A stretch of 64,000 bases of DNA, taken from assembly GCA_024695815.1 (NCBI GenBank), contig JAILHK010000008.1:28836-92835 (forward strand), in the 5' to 3' direction. This document shows, one piece after another, positions 7,362 through 64,000 of this stretch. Numbering within the stretch: the stretch's first letter is position 1; the number at the start of each line of letters is the position of its first letter. The DNA is from Prevotella sp. (GTDB lineage: Bacteria > Bacteroidota > Bacteroidia > Bacteroidales > Bacteroidaceae). Under the pieces are notes generated by a model. That model saw only the letters and a program-made list of their open reading frames with translations, ran no database searches and was not told the DNA's origin. The translations under genes and the position numbers were made by a program.

Positions 7362-10300
7362 CTATTCCTGCACATTTTTCTGATTGACGAACTCCTTTGG
7401 CAACATTCCAAACTGTTTTTGGAAGCACTGTGTGAAGTAGCTGGGCGAACTGAATCCCACCATGTAGCACACCTCATTGATCTTTGTCTCGCCTTGTTTG
7501 AGCAACAGCGCTGCCCGTTTCAGTCGTTCCACCTTAATATAATTATTGGGTGTAAGGTTAAACAAGCCACGCATTTTCCTGTTTAAGTTCGTGCGACTCA
7601 TACACATCTCACTGGCCAGCGCATTTATGTCGAAATCATTATTCGTCATGTTGGCAGTCATCACCTTCTCCAGTCGTTTCATAAACTCTTCGTCGGCCTT
7701 CGATATCGACACCGTGTCTTGTTGCAGGAATGGCGAAGTGGCATAAGCCTGCTTGATGCTTTGTCGCGAACGGAGCAGGTTCTGAATCACACTGAGCAGG
7801 TAGTCCATTGAGAACGGTTTCTCTATGTAGCTGTCAGCACCACTCTCCATACCTTGTATCTTTGCTGAGTCCAGTGTCAGGGCCGTCAGCAGAATCACGG
7901 GTATATGACTGAAGTTCACGTCGCTTTTTACGTGCTGGCACAGTTCGAAGCCATCCATAGGTTCCATCATCACATCCGACACGATGATGTCCACGTCACT
8001 ATCGGTCAGCACCTTCAGTGCCTGTTCGCCATTGATGGCTGTCAGCACACGATAATGGCGTTGCAGGTGGTTCTTCTCATGAGCCAGCAAGGCTGCATTA
8101 TCCTCAACAATCAGTACTGTTGGCAGTTGATCGCGCTCGGGCTGCTCGTCCGTTTCTTCTGTTTCCGTATCAGTGACAACCACTTCTTCGTCCAGCCTCA
8201 TCACATGGTCTTGTTGCTCTATGGGCAGCAGCAGCCGAAACACGTTGAGTGCGGCATCGTCTATGATCTCCAGGTTGCCTCCGTGCAACTCGGCCAAAGA
8301 GCGAGCCAATGCCAGACCAATGCCTGTTCCCGTCTTGGCCTCGGCATTGTCTGCACGATAGAACGGCTTGAAGATCTGTTGTCGCAGCTGAGCATCGATC
8401 AGCCGTCCGTCATTGCGTGTGATGATCTCCACCTGTTCTTCGCTGGCTTTCACCTCCACGCTGACTTGATGCTCACAGTACTTCGTGGCGTTGGTCAGCA
8501 AGTTGCTCACGATCTTGGTCAGCGCTTCACGGTCCACCCATGCCATCAGTGGTGTTTCAGGCAGCACGATGTTTCCCTCAATGCCACGCTGCTGCATCAG
8601 TGGTCCGAAGCGCTTATACACATCATTCACGATTTGTCCGATGTTACAATGCTGGAAGTTCAGTCGCAGTCCGTCGCGTTCAATCTTACGGAAGTCCAAC
8701 AACTGGTTGGTCAGATCCAGCAATCGCGTCACGTTCTGGTCCATGATGTTCAGATTCTCGCGGTCTTCATCATCATGGATATCTTTCTGCAGTATATCCG
8801 TCAGTGGCCCCTTTATCAGTGTCAGCGGCGTACGTATCTCATGAGCCACATTGGTGAAGAAGCTGATCTTGCTCTGGTATAGCTCCTGCTGTTTCTCGTG
8901 CTCAAATTTCTCCATGGCCAGTTGCCTATTCATGCGCGAGCGCTCTTTTAGATAGCGATAGACCAGCAGTCCTACACCCGTCATCAGCAACAGGTAGAGC
9001 AGCCATGCCCACCAGCGCTGATACCAGGGGCGCAGCACGGTGATGCGCAACGTATAGGGCTCGGCCGTCTTACCGATGTTCGACATGTCTTGCACGTGCA
9101 GCACATAACTGCCTGGCGGCAGGTTGGTATATCTGATATAGTTGTCGCTATACAGGTTTTGCCATTCATGGTCGAAGCCCTCCAGGTAATAGGCTATCTG
9201 TCGCATCTGCGCATCGCGGTACGACAGCACCGATATCTTCAGCGAGAACGCATTCTGATCGTGGTTCAGGGTCAGCTCGCGCGTCACCGTGATGCTCTCT
9301 GTCAGCGGAGACTCTGGCGTAAAGTTGTCCACCACACTTCCCTGCAACATCAGCTCTGTGGCAATGATGACCGGGGCCGAAGAAACCCCCAAAAAACTCT
9401 CGGGCGAGAAGGCCACCAAGCCCGACTGGCATCCCAGATAGATTTGTCCCTTAGAGCTGCACAGCGAAGAGTTGCTGCTGAAATCGTTATCCAGCAGACC
9501 GTTAGCGGTGGAATAGATGCGGGTAGAACGGTCGTCAGGATTGTAGCACATCAATCCCTCGTTGGTTGTCAGCCACAACTGTCCTAATCCGTCTTCCACC
9601 ATGCTCTGCACCACACGCTGCGAGCAGAAACTGGGTATGGGTACATGCTCAAAACAACGCTTTTTCTCGTTATATAAGCTGGCACCATTGCAATCTGTAT
9701 ATACCCATATATCTCCATGTGATGTTTCGTAGAGCCCCAACACGTTATTGCTTGCCAACGTGCCATCAGCCTCACGGAACTGTCGCCACTGCTTGCTGCC
9801 TGCTGCCCGCACAAAGACGCCACAGTCATAGATAGCCACCCACAGATTATGCTTGCTGTCCTCCATGATGTCTTTCACGATTTGCTGCGGCAGTTCCTTG
9901 AGGTGATTAAACCTGTTCAGCACCGGATCATAGCAATACACGCCGCCCAGCGTACCTACATATACAACATTGCTCTGCCTTGACTTTTCAAGTGTCAATA
10001 TGAAGTTGTCGTGCAACTGTCCCTCTTCGATGCTCGATTCATAGCTGCGCAACAATCGTCCTGTGGCAGCATCCATCACCTTTAGGCCGTTGTTCAGTGT
10101 TCCTGCCCACAGTTCATTGCCCACCAGACACAGACTTTGCACATTAGGGAATGCCACACTGGCAGACAGGTGTTCAAACCGTCCCGTCGTGGGGTCCAGA
10201 CTGTTCAGTCCGCCATCCTCAGTTGCCACCAAGATATGTCCGTTGGCAGCCTCAACCATTTGTCCCACACGCCTGCCATGCAGTGAGCCTGCCACATCGA

Positions 10301-16074: not shown

Positions 16075-16206
16075 ACACCTTTTTATATATTCTCAAGTAT
16101 AGTTTAGAGCCGCAAAGTTACCTGTTTTCCTGCAAACCGCCGCCCATCATCATCAAAAAAAATGCAGATACCACATAAAAAACAACCAATACACCCCCTC
16201 GCATAT

Positions 16207-16610
16207 CTTGCCATTTCCCCGCAAGAAGAAACCAAAGCACCACAAGCACCCGCAACCGCCCCTAGTGTGTCTTGCGGTTTCCCCGCAAGAAAAAAGCAAA
16301 GCACCACAAGCACCCGCAACCGCCCCTAGTGTGTCTTGCGGTTTCCCCGCAAGAAGAAAACAAAGCGCCACAAACACCTGCAACCGCCCCTAGTGTGTCT
16401 TGCGGTTTCCCCGCAAGAAAAAAGCAAAGCACCACAAGCACCCGCAACTGCCCCTAGTGTGTCTTGCGGTTTCCCCGCAAGAAGAAACCAAAGCACCACA
16501 AACACCCGCAACCGCCCCTAGTGTGTCTTGCGGTTTCCCCGCAAGAAAAAAAACAAAGCACCACAAACACCCGCAACCGCCCCTAGTGTGTCTTGCGGTT
16601 TCCCCGCAAG
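16207..16610. repeat. Tandem array of seven 64-bp units, each with a REP-like hairpin
   Basis: Hairpin CTTGCGG-TTTCC-CCGCAAG at 16271, 16335, 16399, 16463, 16527 and 16592; degenerate first copy CTTGCCATTTCCCCGCAAG at 16207. Period 64 (last step 65). Linker AARCAAAGCACCACAARCACCCGCAACCGCCCCTAGTGTGT. Confidence 0.97.
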
Positions 16611-16627
16611 AAAAAAGCAAAAGAAAA

Positions 16628-20890: not shown

Positions 20891-20961
20891 CGAGGCACTG
20901 AATCGCTGCGATCCGGTATCATTTTCTTAGTTTTTTTCGCGTGACACTTGCCTGCAGGTCT

Positions 20962-21184
20962 TTAGCGCTTGTTGCTGAAGAACATGCCGGTGAGGATGAG
21001 CATCGTGCCGATAAGGAAGTAGAGGGTGATGCGCTCGGAGAGCATGAGCCAGGCGAAGAGAACGGTGGTGACGGGGTTGAAATAGACGTAGTTGGTGGCC
21101 ACGACGGCACCAAGCTTCTTCAGGGCCCAGTTCCACGCGATGAAGCAGATCATGGAGGCCACGCAGCCCAGCCACCCGAGGTTG
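20962..21184 (-). pseudogene. 3' fragment of an EamA/DMT transporter gene
   Basis: Encodes only GCVASMICFIAWNWALKKLGAVVATNYVYFNPVTTVLFAWLMLSERITLYFLIGTMLILTGMFFSNKR, same as the C-terminus of the intact gene at 25817-26713; ungapped ~219-nt match to 25821-26039. Confidence 0.9.
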
Positions 21185-21290
21185 TTTATGCTCAATGCAA
21201 AGATACTAATTATTTTGTAAATCACAACTGGTTGCTGTGCCAGAGCAACAAAATTGTGGCTCACACTGGTCTAAATGACTAATTTAATTC

Positions 21291-22316
21291 TTATTCGGAG
21301 TCTTTCTCTTCAAATGGCAGTTCGCCCAGATATTTGTCAAAGTCGCTTTGGAACAGACGGTCCTGAATAATTCGATACTTCTCAAATTCAGTTTCAGCAT
21401 GTAGCACAGCCTCTTCATGAGTTACACTACCAGCATCGTTCAACAAAGGGCGCTCGTCGCTACTCAGATAGGCATCAATACGTTTGGCCCAGTCTTCCAT
21501 CGTCATAGGGATATGACGCTTGGCTCGGCTCTCAGCAAAATCGAGCACAGCAGTTACGATATGCCCCATATCGTCGAGTTCCATCTCATTCAGATAATTC
21601 TTGGCGATAGAAACATCCGTCTTAACAATTTTTCCGTCAGGCGCATTCTCCCAAGTGGTTAGTCCCATGTGCTCTTTTTCAGCATCGGCCCGCTCCATGA
21701 TGAGCTCCGCTGCCGTATGCTGATGCACAGCATAGTGCATCTTGTTTTGAATGCGCTTATAGAACAGCCGTGTGGTAGGTGCATCCTTGTTGTAGTCCAT
21801 GCTGGTGGCATAGATATCTGTGAGCTTTTGGTAGAAACGACGCTCTGAAAGACGAATCTCTCGAATCTCTGCCAGCAGGTGCTCAAAGTAATCCTCGCCC
21901 AAGAAGGTTCCATTCTCCATGCGCTTCCTATCAAGCACATAGCCACGGATGGCATACTCACGCAACACACTGGTTGCCCACTGGCGGAACTGAGTGGCAC
22001 GGATGCTGTTCACACGATAGCCCACGCTGATGATAGCGTCGAGATTGTAATATTGCGTATTATATTGCTTACCATCAGAAGCTGTTCGTCGGAATTTCCG
22101 ACAAACTGACTCTTTAACCAATTCACCAGTATTAAAAGCATTTTGCAGATGCTCTGTTATTGTTGATCGCCCTTTGTCAAAAAGTACTGCAATAGCATCC
22201 TGTGTACACCAAATTGTTTCTTCGGCATACATAACTTCGATTCCCTGTTCCTTCGCCTCGGCCTGGAAAATCAGGAACTCGGCCGTACTGTTTCTTATCT
22301 CGAATTTCTTAGGCAT
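21291..22316 (-). CDS. rhuM: RhuM family protein
   Basis: ETIWCTQDAIAVLFDKGRSTITEHLQNAFNTGELVKESVCRKFRRTASDGKQYNTQYYNLDAIISVGYRVNSIRATQFRQWATSVLREYAIRGYVLD. Confidence 0.93.
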   Translation of the reverse strand: MPKKFEIRNSTAEFLIFQAEAKEQGIEVMYAEETIWCTQDAIAVLFDKGRSTITEHLQNAFNTGELVKESVCRKFRRTASDGKQYNTQYYNLDAIISVGYRVNSIRATQFRQWATSVLREYAIRGYVLDRKRMENGTFLGEDYFEHLLAEIREIRLSERRFYQKLTDIYATSMDYNKDAPTTRLFYKRIQNKMHYAVHQHTAAELIMERADAEKEHMGLTTWENAPDGKIVKTDVSIAKNYLNEMELDDMGHIVTAVLDFAESRAKRHIPMTMEDWAKRIDAYLSSDERPLLNDAGSVTHEEAVLHAETEFEKYRIIQDRLFQSDFDKYLGELPFEEKDSE

Positions 22317-25816: not shown

Positions 25817-26713
25817 CTATCGCTTGTTGCTGAAGAACATGCCGGTGAGGATGAGCATCGTGCCGATAAGGAAGTAGAGGGTGATGCGCTCGGAGAGCAT
25901 GAGCCAGGCAAAGAGGACGGTGGTGACGGGGTTGAAATAGACGTAGTTGGTGGCTACGACGGCACCGAGCTTCTTGAGGGCCCAGTTCCATGCAATGAAG
26001 CAAATCATAGAGGCTACACAACCCAAGAACAGGAGGTTGAGCACCATCTGGGGGGTGAACACATGGAACACGCGGGGGGTGAAGATCCACACCTCTTCGG
26101 GACGCATCAAGAAGTAGGGGACCATGAACACAAGGCCGTAGAAAAACACCTTGCGGGTGATGAAGAGGGTGCGGTAGTGATGGGTGGCGGGTATCATCAG
26201 CAGCGAATAGAAGGCCCAACAAAGACAGGCACCAAGGGCAAGGGCATCGCCCAGCGGCGAGAGGTGGAGCACGAAATGGCCGTTGAGCACAACAACGACG
26301 ACGCCAAGGGCTGCCATCAGGGTGCCTACGATCTGGATGCCGTGCAGACGCTGGGAGCGATAGAAGAGGCTGATAAGACCGGTGGCAAACAGCGGACTGA
26401 GGCAGACGATGAGCGAGGTATTGGTGGTGGTGGTATAGACCATGGAGGTGTTCTCGGTGAGGAAGTAGAGGGTGCCACCACTGAGACCGAGCAGGGCCAT
26501 GAGCAACTCATCGCGCCACGAGGCGGCAAACCAACGGAACGAGCGGCGCGTCATGGCATAGGCAAGCAGCAGCACGTAGGCAATTATAAATCGCAGGGTG
26601 AAAATCTGGGCTGCCGTGAGGCCGGCCATGAGCAGTAGTTTGGTGTATATAAAGGTGGTGCCCCAAATGGCTACCACAAGAAAGGCTACTAAATGATAAA
26701 CTAGTTTGTTCAT
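25817..26713 (-). CDS. EamA/DMT family transporter
   Basis: MNKLVYHLVAFLVVAIWGTTFIYTKLLLMAGLTAAQIFTLRFIIAYVLLLAYAM; 10-TM pattern. Start 26713 rather than 26764 (promoter TACCTTTG at ~26740). Confidence 0.93.
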   Translation of the reverse strand: MNKLVYHLVAFLVVAIWGTTFIYTKLLLMAGLTAAQIFTLRFIIAYVLLLAYAMTRRSFRWFAASWRDELLMALLGLSGGTLYFLTENTSMVYTTTTNTSLIVCLSPLFATGLISLFYRSQRLHGIQIVGTLMAALGVVVVVLNGHFVLHLSPLGDALALGACLCWAFYSLLMIPATHHYRTLFITRKVFFYGLVFMVPYFLMRPEEVWIFTPRVFHVFTPQMVLNLLFLGCVASMICFIAWNWALKKLGAVVATNYVYFNPVTTVLFAWLMLSERITLYFLIGTMLILTGMFFSNKR

Positions 26714-26809
26714 AATGCTATATAAATGGTATGCAAAGGTACGGTTTATTGACGATACGCACAAATATTATAGTGTTTTTTAAGGGTTCACACAGGCTGT
26801 TTTAAAGCG

Positions 26810-27073
26810 CAATAGCGCCACTATGATGTGGCAATAGTGCCACTATCAGCGCGCAAGAGTGGCACTATTGGATGCCGTCTAGAGTCTAGAAACATCAATT
26901 CTAGAGTCTAGAATGGATCGATGTAGAGTCTAGAATGGGTAATTCTAGAGTCTAGAAATGGCGTTTCTAGAGTCTAGAAATGATGCAAGAGTTAAACTAT
27001 GAGCTTTATATACCCACCATTCTACCCGGTTAAAGTTTTACTATTAGATGCGAAAAGCGTAACTTTGCAACTG
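26810..27073. repeat. Degenerate 22-bp-period tandem array of odd palindromes (about 12 units)
   Basis: Units start every 22 bp: caatagcgccactat (26810), caatagtgccactat (26832), caagagtggcactatt (26854), then tctagagtctagaa-type (26876, 26898, 26920, 26942, 26964), caagagttaaactatg (26986), ttaaagttttactattagatgc (27030), gaaaagcgtaactttgcaac (27052). Confidence 0.85.
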
Positions 27074-27141
27074 GAAAATTAAAGCGACAAGATCGCCATA
27101 CATACAGAGAACGACTATTTATAACCATTAAAAACACGATT

Positions 27142-27567
27142 ATGGCACTATTTTACAAATTCAGGCAAAACAATGATAACACGAAACCTAAGGCCTACAA
27201 GAAGTGGTTTGCACGAGCTGTCCACACCGAGACGGTGGGCATCCGCGAACTGTCGGAACAGATGCAGTGCAACAGCACGGTGAAACGGTCGGACATCCTG
27301 GCCGTGCTGAGCGAACTGGCCGACACCATGACCTCCGAACTGCAAAGCGGACGCAAGGTCTATCTGGAGGGCATCGGCACCTTTATGCTGGGCATCAGCA
27401 GCCGAGGGTGCGACCACGCCCGCGACTTCAGGACAGACCGCGACGTGGTGGACGTGCACGTGGTGTTTCAACCCGACACCTATAAGACGCGCAACGGGGT
27501 GAAACGACACGCACTGACCGACGGCACCCGACTGGTAGAGATGCCACACTATCGGAAACCAGAGTAG
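27142..27567 (+). CDS. HU family DNA-binding protein (HU-HIG type), paralog of 13776-14219
   Basis: KWFARAVHTETVGIRELSEQMQCNSTVKRSDILAVLSELADTMTSELQSGRKVYLEGIGTFMLGIS; promoter TAACTTTG at 27060. Confidence 0.9.
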   Translation: MALFYKFRQNNDNTKPKAYKKWFARAVHTETVGIRELSEQMQCNSTVKRSDILAVLSELADTMTSELQSGRKVYLEGIGTFMLGISSRGCDHARDFRTDRDVVDVHVVFQPDTYKTRNGVKRHALTDGTRLVEMPHYRKPE

Positions 27568-34161: not shown

Positions 34162-34242
34162 TTCGTTTGCAAAGATAAGTATTTTAAGTGAGAAGTGAAA
34201 AGTGAGAAGTGAGAAGTTTTATTTGAAAGGTGAGAAAAAGGG

Positions 34243-46760: not shown

Positions 46761-46848
46761 AAAAAACGTAACTTTGCAACGAGAAAAGCATAGCTTTACA
46801 GGTGGAATAGTGGCACTTTACTATTCTAAAAGCATAGCTTTGCGATAA
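46761..46848. repeat. 22-bp-period tandem array containing promoter-like units, upstream of mutS
   Basis: aaaaaacgtaactttgcaacga (46761) / gaaaagcatagctttacaggtg (46783) / gaatagtggcactttactattc (46805) / taaaagcatagctttgcgataa (46827). Confidence 0.85.
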
Positions 46849-46861
46849 TAAAAGTAAAAGA

Positions 46862-57676: not shown

Positions 57677-57715
57677 AGTGGGCGTCCTCAGTTGATGATC
57701 GCGCCCACTTTTTTT
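57677..57715 (+). terminator. Intrinsic terminator
   Basis: AGTGGGCG tcctcagttgatgatcg CGCCCACT + TTTTTTT. Confidence 0.88.
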
Positions 57716-57755
57716 GTATGCTTAGTGTGCCTCTTTTGTATGCTTAGTGTGCCTC
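57712..57755. repeat. Perfect tandem duplication of 22 bp overlapping the polA stop codon
   Basis: TTTTGTATGCTTAGTGTGCCTC at 57712-57733 and 57734-57755. Confidence 0.97.
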
Positions 57756-61604: not shown

Positions 61605-61740
61605 AAGTGAGAAGTGAGAAGTGTTACTAAGTGGGAAGTGAAAAGTGAGAGGTGAGAAGTATTATTAGTACTACTCACCTCTCATCTTATGTATAAAGCC
61701 CAAAAGTGTAATTACACTTCTCACCTCTCACTTCTCACTT
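61605..61740. repeat. Imperfect 8-bp satellite (GTGAGAAG) with an inverted counterpart
   Basis: aagtgagaagtgagaagtg...aaaagtgagaggtgagaag at 61605-61660 versus cacttctcacctctcacttctcactt at 61715-61740. Confidence 0.85.
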
Positions 61741-63681: not shown

Positions 63682-63703
63682 CATTTTTACTGCTATTCCT
63701 TTG

Positions 63704-63857
63704 CAATAGCATCCGAATAGTGCCGCAATACCAGCCGTTTTGCACCCTTATACTTCCGCTTTCGTGTTGCAATACTTACCCTTTTGCTTTCAATCTAGCC
63801 CCTAGACGAGTCAATTCTAGCCCCTGGACGAGTCAATTCTAGCCCCTAGAACAGTGC
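63704..63857. repeat. 22-bp-period tandem array of palindromic units beside the IS end
   Basis: Units at 63704, 63726, 63748, 63770 (caata.../ttata...) then aatctagcccctagacgagtca (63792), attctagcccctggacgagtca (63814), attctagcccctagaacagtgc (63836). Confidence 0.85.
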
Positions 63858-63860
63858 AAT

Positions 63861-64000
63861 TGAAGTGAACCCAGAAAGTTGGACACAACTTAATGGTTCA
63901 AAATGAAACGTAGTTACAGTCTAGAAGAAAAGTTATGTGCAATTGGATTCGTATTCCAAGGTGAATCAGTCAGTTCGGTCTCTCGCAGGTTGCATTTTGG
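63861..64000 (+). mobile_element. IS3-family-like insertion sequence, left end (truncated by window)
   Basis: Terminal TGAAGTGAACCCAGAAAGTTGGACAC then OrfA-like ORF. Confidence 0.75.
63903..64000 (+). CDS. IS3-type transposase OrfA, N-terminal fragment
   Basis: MKRSYSLEEKLCAIGFVFQGESVSSVSRRLHFG..., HTH-type start; runs off the window. Confidence 0.75.
   Translation, partial: MKRSYSLEEKLCAIGFVFQGESVSSVSRRLHF

Follow-up and report, generated by a model that had tools for sequence, protein, structure and literature searches.

The chromosome of a Prevotella species carries a family of short palindrome arrays with a 22-bp period. One of these lies at positions 26810–27073 of the window, the whole 64,000-nucleotide stretch analysed here (assembly GCA_024695815.1, contig JAILHK010000008.1, positions 28,836 to 92,835), upstream of a gene for an HU-type protein. 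Roughly 50–75 intergenic arrays are present in this genome. The window array may belong to a family of nucleoprotein platforms dispersed between genes, with bound proteins on the same face of the helix and an architectural role; we hold this reading with somewhat less than even confidence. Transposases or hairpins are the usual explanation for dispersed intergenic repeats in bacteria; in this case it is the arrangement that points to a protein assembly on DNA. No description of the family, and no paper containing two or more of its unit strings, was found in the open-licence literature searched.

Architecture of the 22-bp arrays

The period of the window array is well defined. Self-match at lag 22 over 26810–27073 is 0.512, against a mean of 0.259 (s.d. 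0.027) in 2000 dinucleotide shuffles, whose maximum over lags 10 to 60 is 0.392. Tandem Repeats Finder reports period-22 arrays at 26807–26868 and 26878–26980. The palindrome array that a first-pass annotation had described upstream of the HU gene is thus real. Its core (26877–26986) consists of five 22-bp units, each a 15-bp palindrome and a 7-nt spacer, with the consensus TTCTAGAGTCTAGAA and starts at 26877, 26899, 26921, 26943 and 26965. All five had been annotated and all are present at 22-bp steps, but the unit at 26921 reads ATGTAGAGTCTAGAA, so that the full TCTAGAGTCTAGAA occurs in only four; several of the unit starts given, though broadly right, were wrong by one base. The left shell (26789–26876) comprises a degenerate outer unit at 26789 and three A-type units in phase with the core, AATAGCGCCACTATG (26811), AATAGTGCCACTATC (26833) and AAGAGTGGCACTATT (26855). 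The phase had been said to continue through degenerate units, and it does so in the right shell (26987–27074): AAGAGTTAAACTATG (26987), TTAAAGTTTTACTAT (27031) and GAAAAGCGTAACTTT (27053) are in register, and only the position at 27009 is unrecognisable. This right shell is identical along its full stretch in Xylanibacter brevis.

The same build recurs across the genome. In a 464-kb sample, made up of the window and 20 stretches not chosen for arrays (at least one of which covers a known array), lag 22 yields 13 strong regions, compared with 0–6 for other lags from 12 to 44, the harmonic at 44 excepted; this sample scales to about 70 arrays per genome. The annotation had staked its period on autocorrelation and a genome scan, and lag 22 is above shuffles in the one and enriched in the other. 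With up to two mismatches, TTCTAGAGTCTAGAA matches 142 places in the 2.63-Mb genome, against 0–2 for a reversed control, and AATAGTGCCACTATT matches 75, against 4. Within the sample, 21 of 22 core-type matches fall inside arrays. Individual inspection of 49 arrays, aligned in the 22-bp register, gives a common order of shell, core block and shell, with units increasingly degenerate outwards. The shell unit is AAwAGTG-S-CACTwTT. The core unit is TTCTAG-NSN-CTAGAA, in which NSN is mostly AGT/ACT or CCC/GGG and usually uniform within a block; its centre base is G or C, about equally often, in 475 of 477 units. Rarer types are CGACTTAAGTCG and units with a CCGTAAC spacer. The modal core has five units, both here (27 of 49 blocks) and in X. 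brevis (29 of 41).

Two features of spacing suggest that the units share one face of the helix, an idea already present in the annotation and strengthened here. Shell sites stand in the 22-bp phase of the core in 181 of 185 cases, though shell and core sequences are unrelated. Successive core blocks lie 33 bp (22+11) from each other in 11 of 12 cases, so the basic step is 11 bp. The preference for purine at spacer position 3 and for pyrimidine at position 5 adds a weak dyad at a distance of 11 bp from the main one.

Conservation is uneven within the unit. Neighbouring palindromes are 0.858 identical, whereas adjacent spacers reach only 0.405 (0.295 for random pairs). The earlier proposal of stepwise tandem duplication followed by decay therefore stands in part: arrays gain and lose entire units, and neighbouring spacers resemble each other slightly more than random ones do, but palindromes held this similar while spacers diverge indicate constraint on the palindromes, not decay. 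The two arms mutate essentially independently of each other, and compensated pairs are in no general excess (at positions 6/10, two double changes against 4.2 expected), as expected of half-sites read by a protein and not of selected hairpin pairing.

Genomic placement and proposed function

Genes were predicted in this analysis from open reading frames and codon usage. None of the 49 arrays lies inside a predicted gene. Among the 38 that could be classed by both flanking genes, 20 lie between tandem, 11 between convergent and seven between divergent genes. Gene 3' ends are closer to the arrays (median distance 100 bp) than 5' ends are (170 bp; p=4e-5). The 56 flanking genes, HU among them, are diverse and include no recurrent family. 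A complete relative with a single-contig, 3.45-Mb chromosome (G157) has at least 49 array loci, also dispersed. Those listed show no origin or terminus bias (Rayleigh p about 0.11) and lie at distances from dnaA expected by chance; a signal of an origin or terminus macrodomain was accordingly rejected.

A model can be outlined as follows. (i) Each 15-bp palindrome would be the site of a putative dimeric, sequence-specific DNA-binding protein. (ii) With 11 bp per turn, a 22-bp step makes two full turns and would set all dimers on one face, where they could bind cooperatively through mutual contact along about 110 bp of core. (iii) The conserved shell palindromes, in register with the core, would be bound by a related or second putative protein. 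(iv) The likeliest role would be architectural and similar to that of bacterial interspersed mosaic elements (BIMEs): a boundary, anchor or supercoiling-control point between transcription units, not a single-gene operator. An architectural role is preferred because the arrays are intergenic, lie nearer 3' ends and are often found between convergent genes.

Several points weigh against this model. A few compensated pairs do occur at positions 3/13 (four) and 4/12 (eight), and RNA of the array region has a far better fold than shuffled sequences (z=-7.0). The preference for 3' ends may in part be due to longer regulatory regions at 5' ends. Concerted conservation of units could stem from gene conversion or enzyme-driven amplification that brings the host no benefit. 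The cognate binding protein is itself putative.

The stable fold makes a role in the transcript conceivable, and the arrays might act as RNA stem-loops at mRNA ends, that is, as 3' stabilisers, processing sites or attenuators. Proximity to 3' ends fits this, as does a G or C centre base within a 3-nt loop. We nevertheless consider it quite improbable. Compensatory change between arms is scarce, no terminator-like T run occurs within the array, Rfam gave no match to a known RNA family, and seven of the 38 classed arrays lie between divergent genes. Hairpins have no need of helical phasing, yet it is kept across spacers and blocks. A phase common to unrelated sequences, 11-bp steps between blocks, conserved arms, free spacers and largely independent arm mutations together favour protein dimers over RNA hairpins.

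An operator is still less credible. The annotation had linked the array to its HU neighbour, and such an operator for this gene or a local regulon would be bound by HU or by a GntR/LacI-type repressor. The gene (27142–27567, plus strand; HU-HIG family, Pfam PF18291, E=9.5e-24) adjoins the array, and X. brevis has kept this arrangement. The last shell unit, at 27053, includes TAACTTTG, which we take to resemble the Bacteroidetes -7 box TAnnTTTG, and so overlaps a possible HU promoter. Against this stand tens of arrays, all 49 inspected being intergenic, beside unrelated housekeeping genes and in many cases between convergent ones; no family is common to the 56 flanking genes. An HU-specific operator was therefore rejected as highly improbable, and the HU gene is best read as an incidental neighbour.

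On the other flank, divergent to HU, is a gene for an EamA-family transporter (25817–26764, minus strand; PF00892, E=7.3e-36), whose likely start is an internal ATG near 26713. A reading frame at 20919–21282 is nearly identical to its C-terminal part and represents a duplicated fragment some 4.5 kb away; a RhuM-family gene is found at 21291–22316 (PF13310, E=9e-108). Lag 22 is prominent along the window as a whole, and two further arrays are present in it. The lag-22 scan detects one at 46767–46856 that has only shell-type units (AAAAGCATAGCTTTA, AATAGTGGCACTTTA and others). The other (63703–63886) consists of a degenerate shell and three TCTAGCCCCTAGA-type core units and ends at an IS3-like element; its X. 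brevis orthologue (L086) has a full core. The start of this insertion sequence (IS) element (TGAAGTGAACCCAGAAAGTTGGACAC...) occupies 63857–64000, directly after the CCCC-type core. Next to the arrays at loci L021, L040, L044, L048 and L049 lie close copies of it or a second IS3-type element; these loci were selected for arrays, which leaves a target preference unproven.

The window contains other repeats. A 64-bp unit is repeated 6.5 times (93% matches) at 16206–16621 and includes TCTTGCGGTTTCCCCGCAAGA hairpins. Heptamer arrays of AAGTGAG or CTCACTT are found at 34186–34217, 61605–61660 and 61715–61740, two of which face each other about 100 bp apart. An exact 22-bp direct duplication, TTTTGTATGCTTAGTGTGCCTC, past a gene end (57712–57755) is non-palindromic and apparently unrelated to the arrays.

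Evolution and taxonomic range

The family is restricted to the genus. Shell motifs paired at 22 bp occur in 41 of 399 congeners (four with the reversed control) and in none of about 290 genomes from outside the genus; of 295 genomes sampled across the order, this one (G000) was the sole carrier. Counts of the motif are highest in five genomes: 284 in G428, 115 in G319, 58 in G157, 53 in G000 and 37 in G392. The TCTAG core is narrower in range, being found in four of the 399 congeners and limited to the X. brevis cluster. When GTDB genomes were scanned for core-type arrays, most of those detected were in X. brevis ATCC 19188; this is a named strain, so the putative binding factor can be sought in it directly. 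In other species a different core occupies this register: G006 has AAATCAAATTGATTT, G330 has TGTAGTGSCACTACA and G356 may have GAAAACATCGTTTTC. An operator-like parallel was noticed in the Firmicute Falcatimonas sp. MSJ-15, which has a single three-unit array of TCTAGTNACTAGAC at 22-bp steps (L091, about 7480–7545).

Array positions are shared between relatives. Flanks in X. brevis match those of this genome at about 78–98%, with arrays at the same places. Loci of X. brevis or G157 were aligned in 16 cases, two of which repeat a single locus, and every alignment has an array in both genomes; the X. brevis loci were chosen for their arrays, which precludes a count of empty sites. The annotation had suggested comparing unit number between strains, and orthologous arrays often differ in length by about whole 22-bp units. 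In 57 core units aligned between sister genomes, the A of TAG (position 5) and the T of CTA (position 11) never changed, whereas the three central positions changed 15–19 times. Orthologous spacers diverge by 33%, a figure partly inflated by unit turnover, and flanks by about 11%.

Core types can change at one site. The window core has five AGT-type units; at the same place in G157 (L143) the core is of CCC/GGG type and neighbouring DNA is largely kept. Compared with X. brevis, four of the five window units show a G-to-C change at the centre. In L098 and L143, several neighbouring core centres are changed relative to window positions 26877–26986 (AGT to ACT and AGT to CCC, respectively), and in X. 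brevis such changes in neighbouring units came with much of the spacer sequence kept. Loop inversion, very short conversion or a similar process may lie behind these changes in neighbouring units.

Findings of this kind bear on the main rival to an architectural role, a selfish or neutral minisatellite without host function, in which recombination, replication slippage or a transposase-like process amplifies and homogenises the palindromes. The 23-nt bricks of the BrickBuilt element of Porphyromonas gingivalis would be a parallel. Gain and loss of whole units, with length differences near multiples of 22 bp, are in its favour, as are core types that differ between species and the replacement of a core as a block, with shell and flank kept, between the window and L143. 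So are the IS3-like elements beside several arrays. G428, too, has a conserved element of about 470 bp, dispersed in both orientations, that contains a five-unit shell array and whose ends share the direct repeat ATATTTGCAT (L117, L171–L176). Slippage predicts a spread of core lengths, however, and the observed lengths peak sharply at five units. Nor does a minisatellite readily account for the phase shared by unrelated palindromes, the 33-bp block offsets or the retention of an array at every comparable orthologous locus (in a biased sample), and a non-exhaustive search saw no terminal inverted repeats around arrays of this genome. We regard it as unlikely, but as a serious contender.

A phage or plasmid origin was rejected. 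BLAST found no match in phages or plasmids, and viral contigs lacked the core array; the shell pattern matched a single viral contig, in which five copies of an unrelated 11-bp repeat, AGTGCCACTTT, are present.

Under the architectural reading, the arrays might represent a new class of chromosomal element, a genus-wide set of helically phased arrays in which one factor would read the conserved shell and a fast-evolving partner an exchangeable, clade-specific core, so that the specificity of tens of sites would be swapped together between related species. This extension is speculative and on balance doubtful. If cores do swap together with their reader, they would provide a bacterial case of rapid co-evolution between sites and reader.

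Comparison with known systems

Near-identical palindromic repeats separated by variable spacers recall clustered regularly interspaced short palindromic repeats (CRISPR). CRISPR repeats, however, measure about 23–50 bp and alternate with unique spacers of similar length, whereas the Prevotella arrays have 15-bp repeats and 7-nt spacers, occur at dozens of loci and change by duplication or loss of whole units. No cas genes were present among the Pfam matches around the HU array or among the 25 array-flanking families listed.

Plasmid iterons, parS sites and ParR arrays consist of short sites at helical spacing that are bound cooperatively on one face. Helical phasing across spacers and blocks is likewise found in the Prevotella arrays (181/185; 11/12). 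These differ in being chromosomal, in occupying tens of loci that do not cluster at the origin, and in having no association seen with rep or par genes.

Two repeats of the order Bacteroidales invite comparison. PINSR is a 188-bp intergenic repeat of Prevotella with 177–184 copies and of unknown function, known from four related species; it has no terminal inverted repeats, and its positions are mostly conserved between strains (PMC4755523). The text on PINSR mentions no 22-bp period or palindrome array, and it is set apart here on that description. BrickBuilt, a miniature inverted-repeat transposable element of Porphyromonas gingivalis, has spacerless 23-nt repeats (AGAYCATARTATCCTCTCRTRTG) and a leader and tail with terminal inverted repeats at 19 loci (PMC4596501). 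It resembles the Prevotella arrays in being intergenic, in its short tandem unit of variable copy number and in forming part of a larger element. The Prevotella unit differs in sequence and in length (22 bp), combines 15-bp palindromes with 7-nt variable spacers and has a modal five-unit core. Leader or tail inverted repeats were not seen in G000, in a search that was not exhaustive, and the ends of the G428 element are direct repeats.

The arrays also resemble the repetitive extragenic palindromic (REP) sequences and BIMEs of enterobacteria and pseudomonads, which are likewise dispersed, intergenic, clustered palindromic units numbering tens to hundreds per genome. REPs serve as IS targets (PMC1525189), and IS elements also adjoin Prevotella arrays. 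REP units of 20–40 nt alternate in orientation, whereas the Prevotella units are phase-locked at 22 bp in a two-tier build of core and shell. REPs are marked by a GTAG/CGTC tag (PMC3733652); neither tetranucleotide terminates the array unit consensus. The REP-associated tyrosine transposase (RAYT; Y1 transposase, PF01797) was not found in G000, G428, G392 or G330, and is present in some array-poor genomes; its absence from G000 is weaker evidence, since this assembly is 83% complete (relatives 99–100%). An origin from REP/RAYT was rejected on these grounds, several array-rich genomes lacking PF01797 and the units lacking the tag. The Prevotella arrays are best regarded as BIME-like in role and as distinct from REP/RAYT, BrickBuilt and CRISPR systems.
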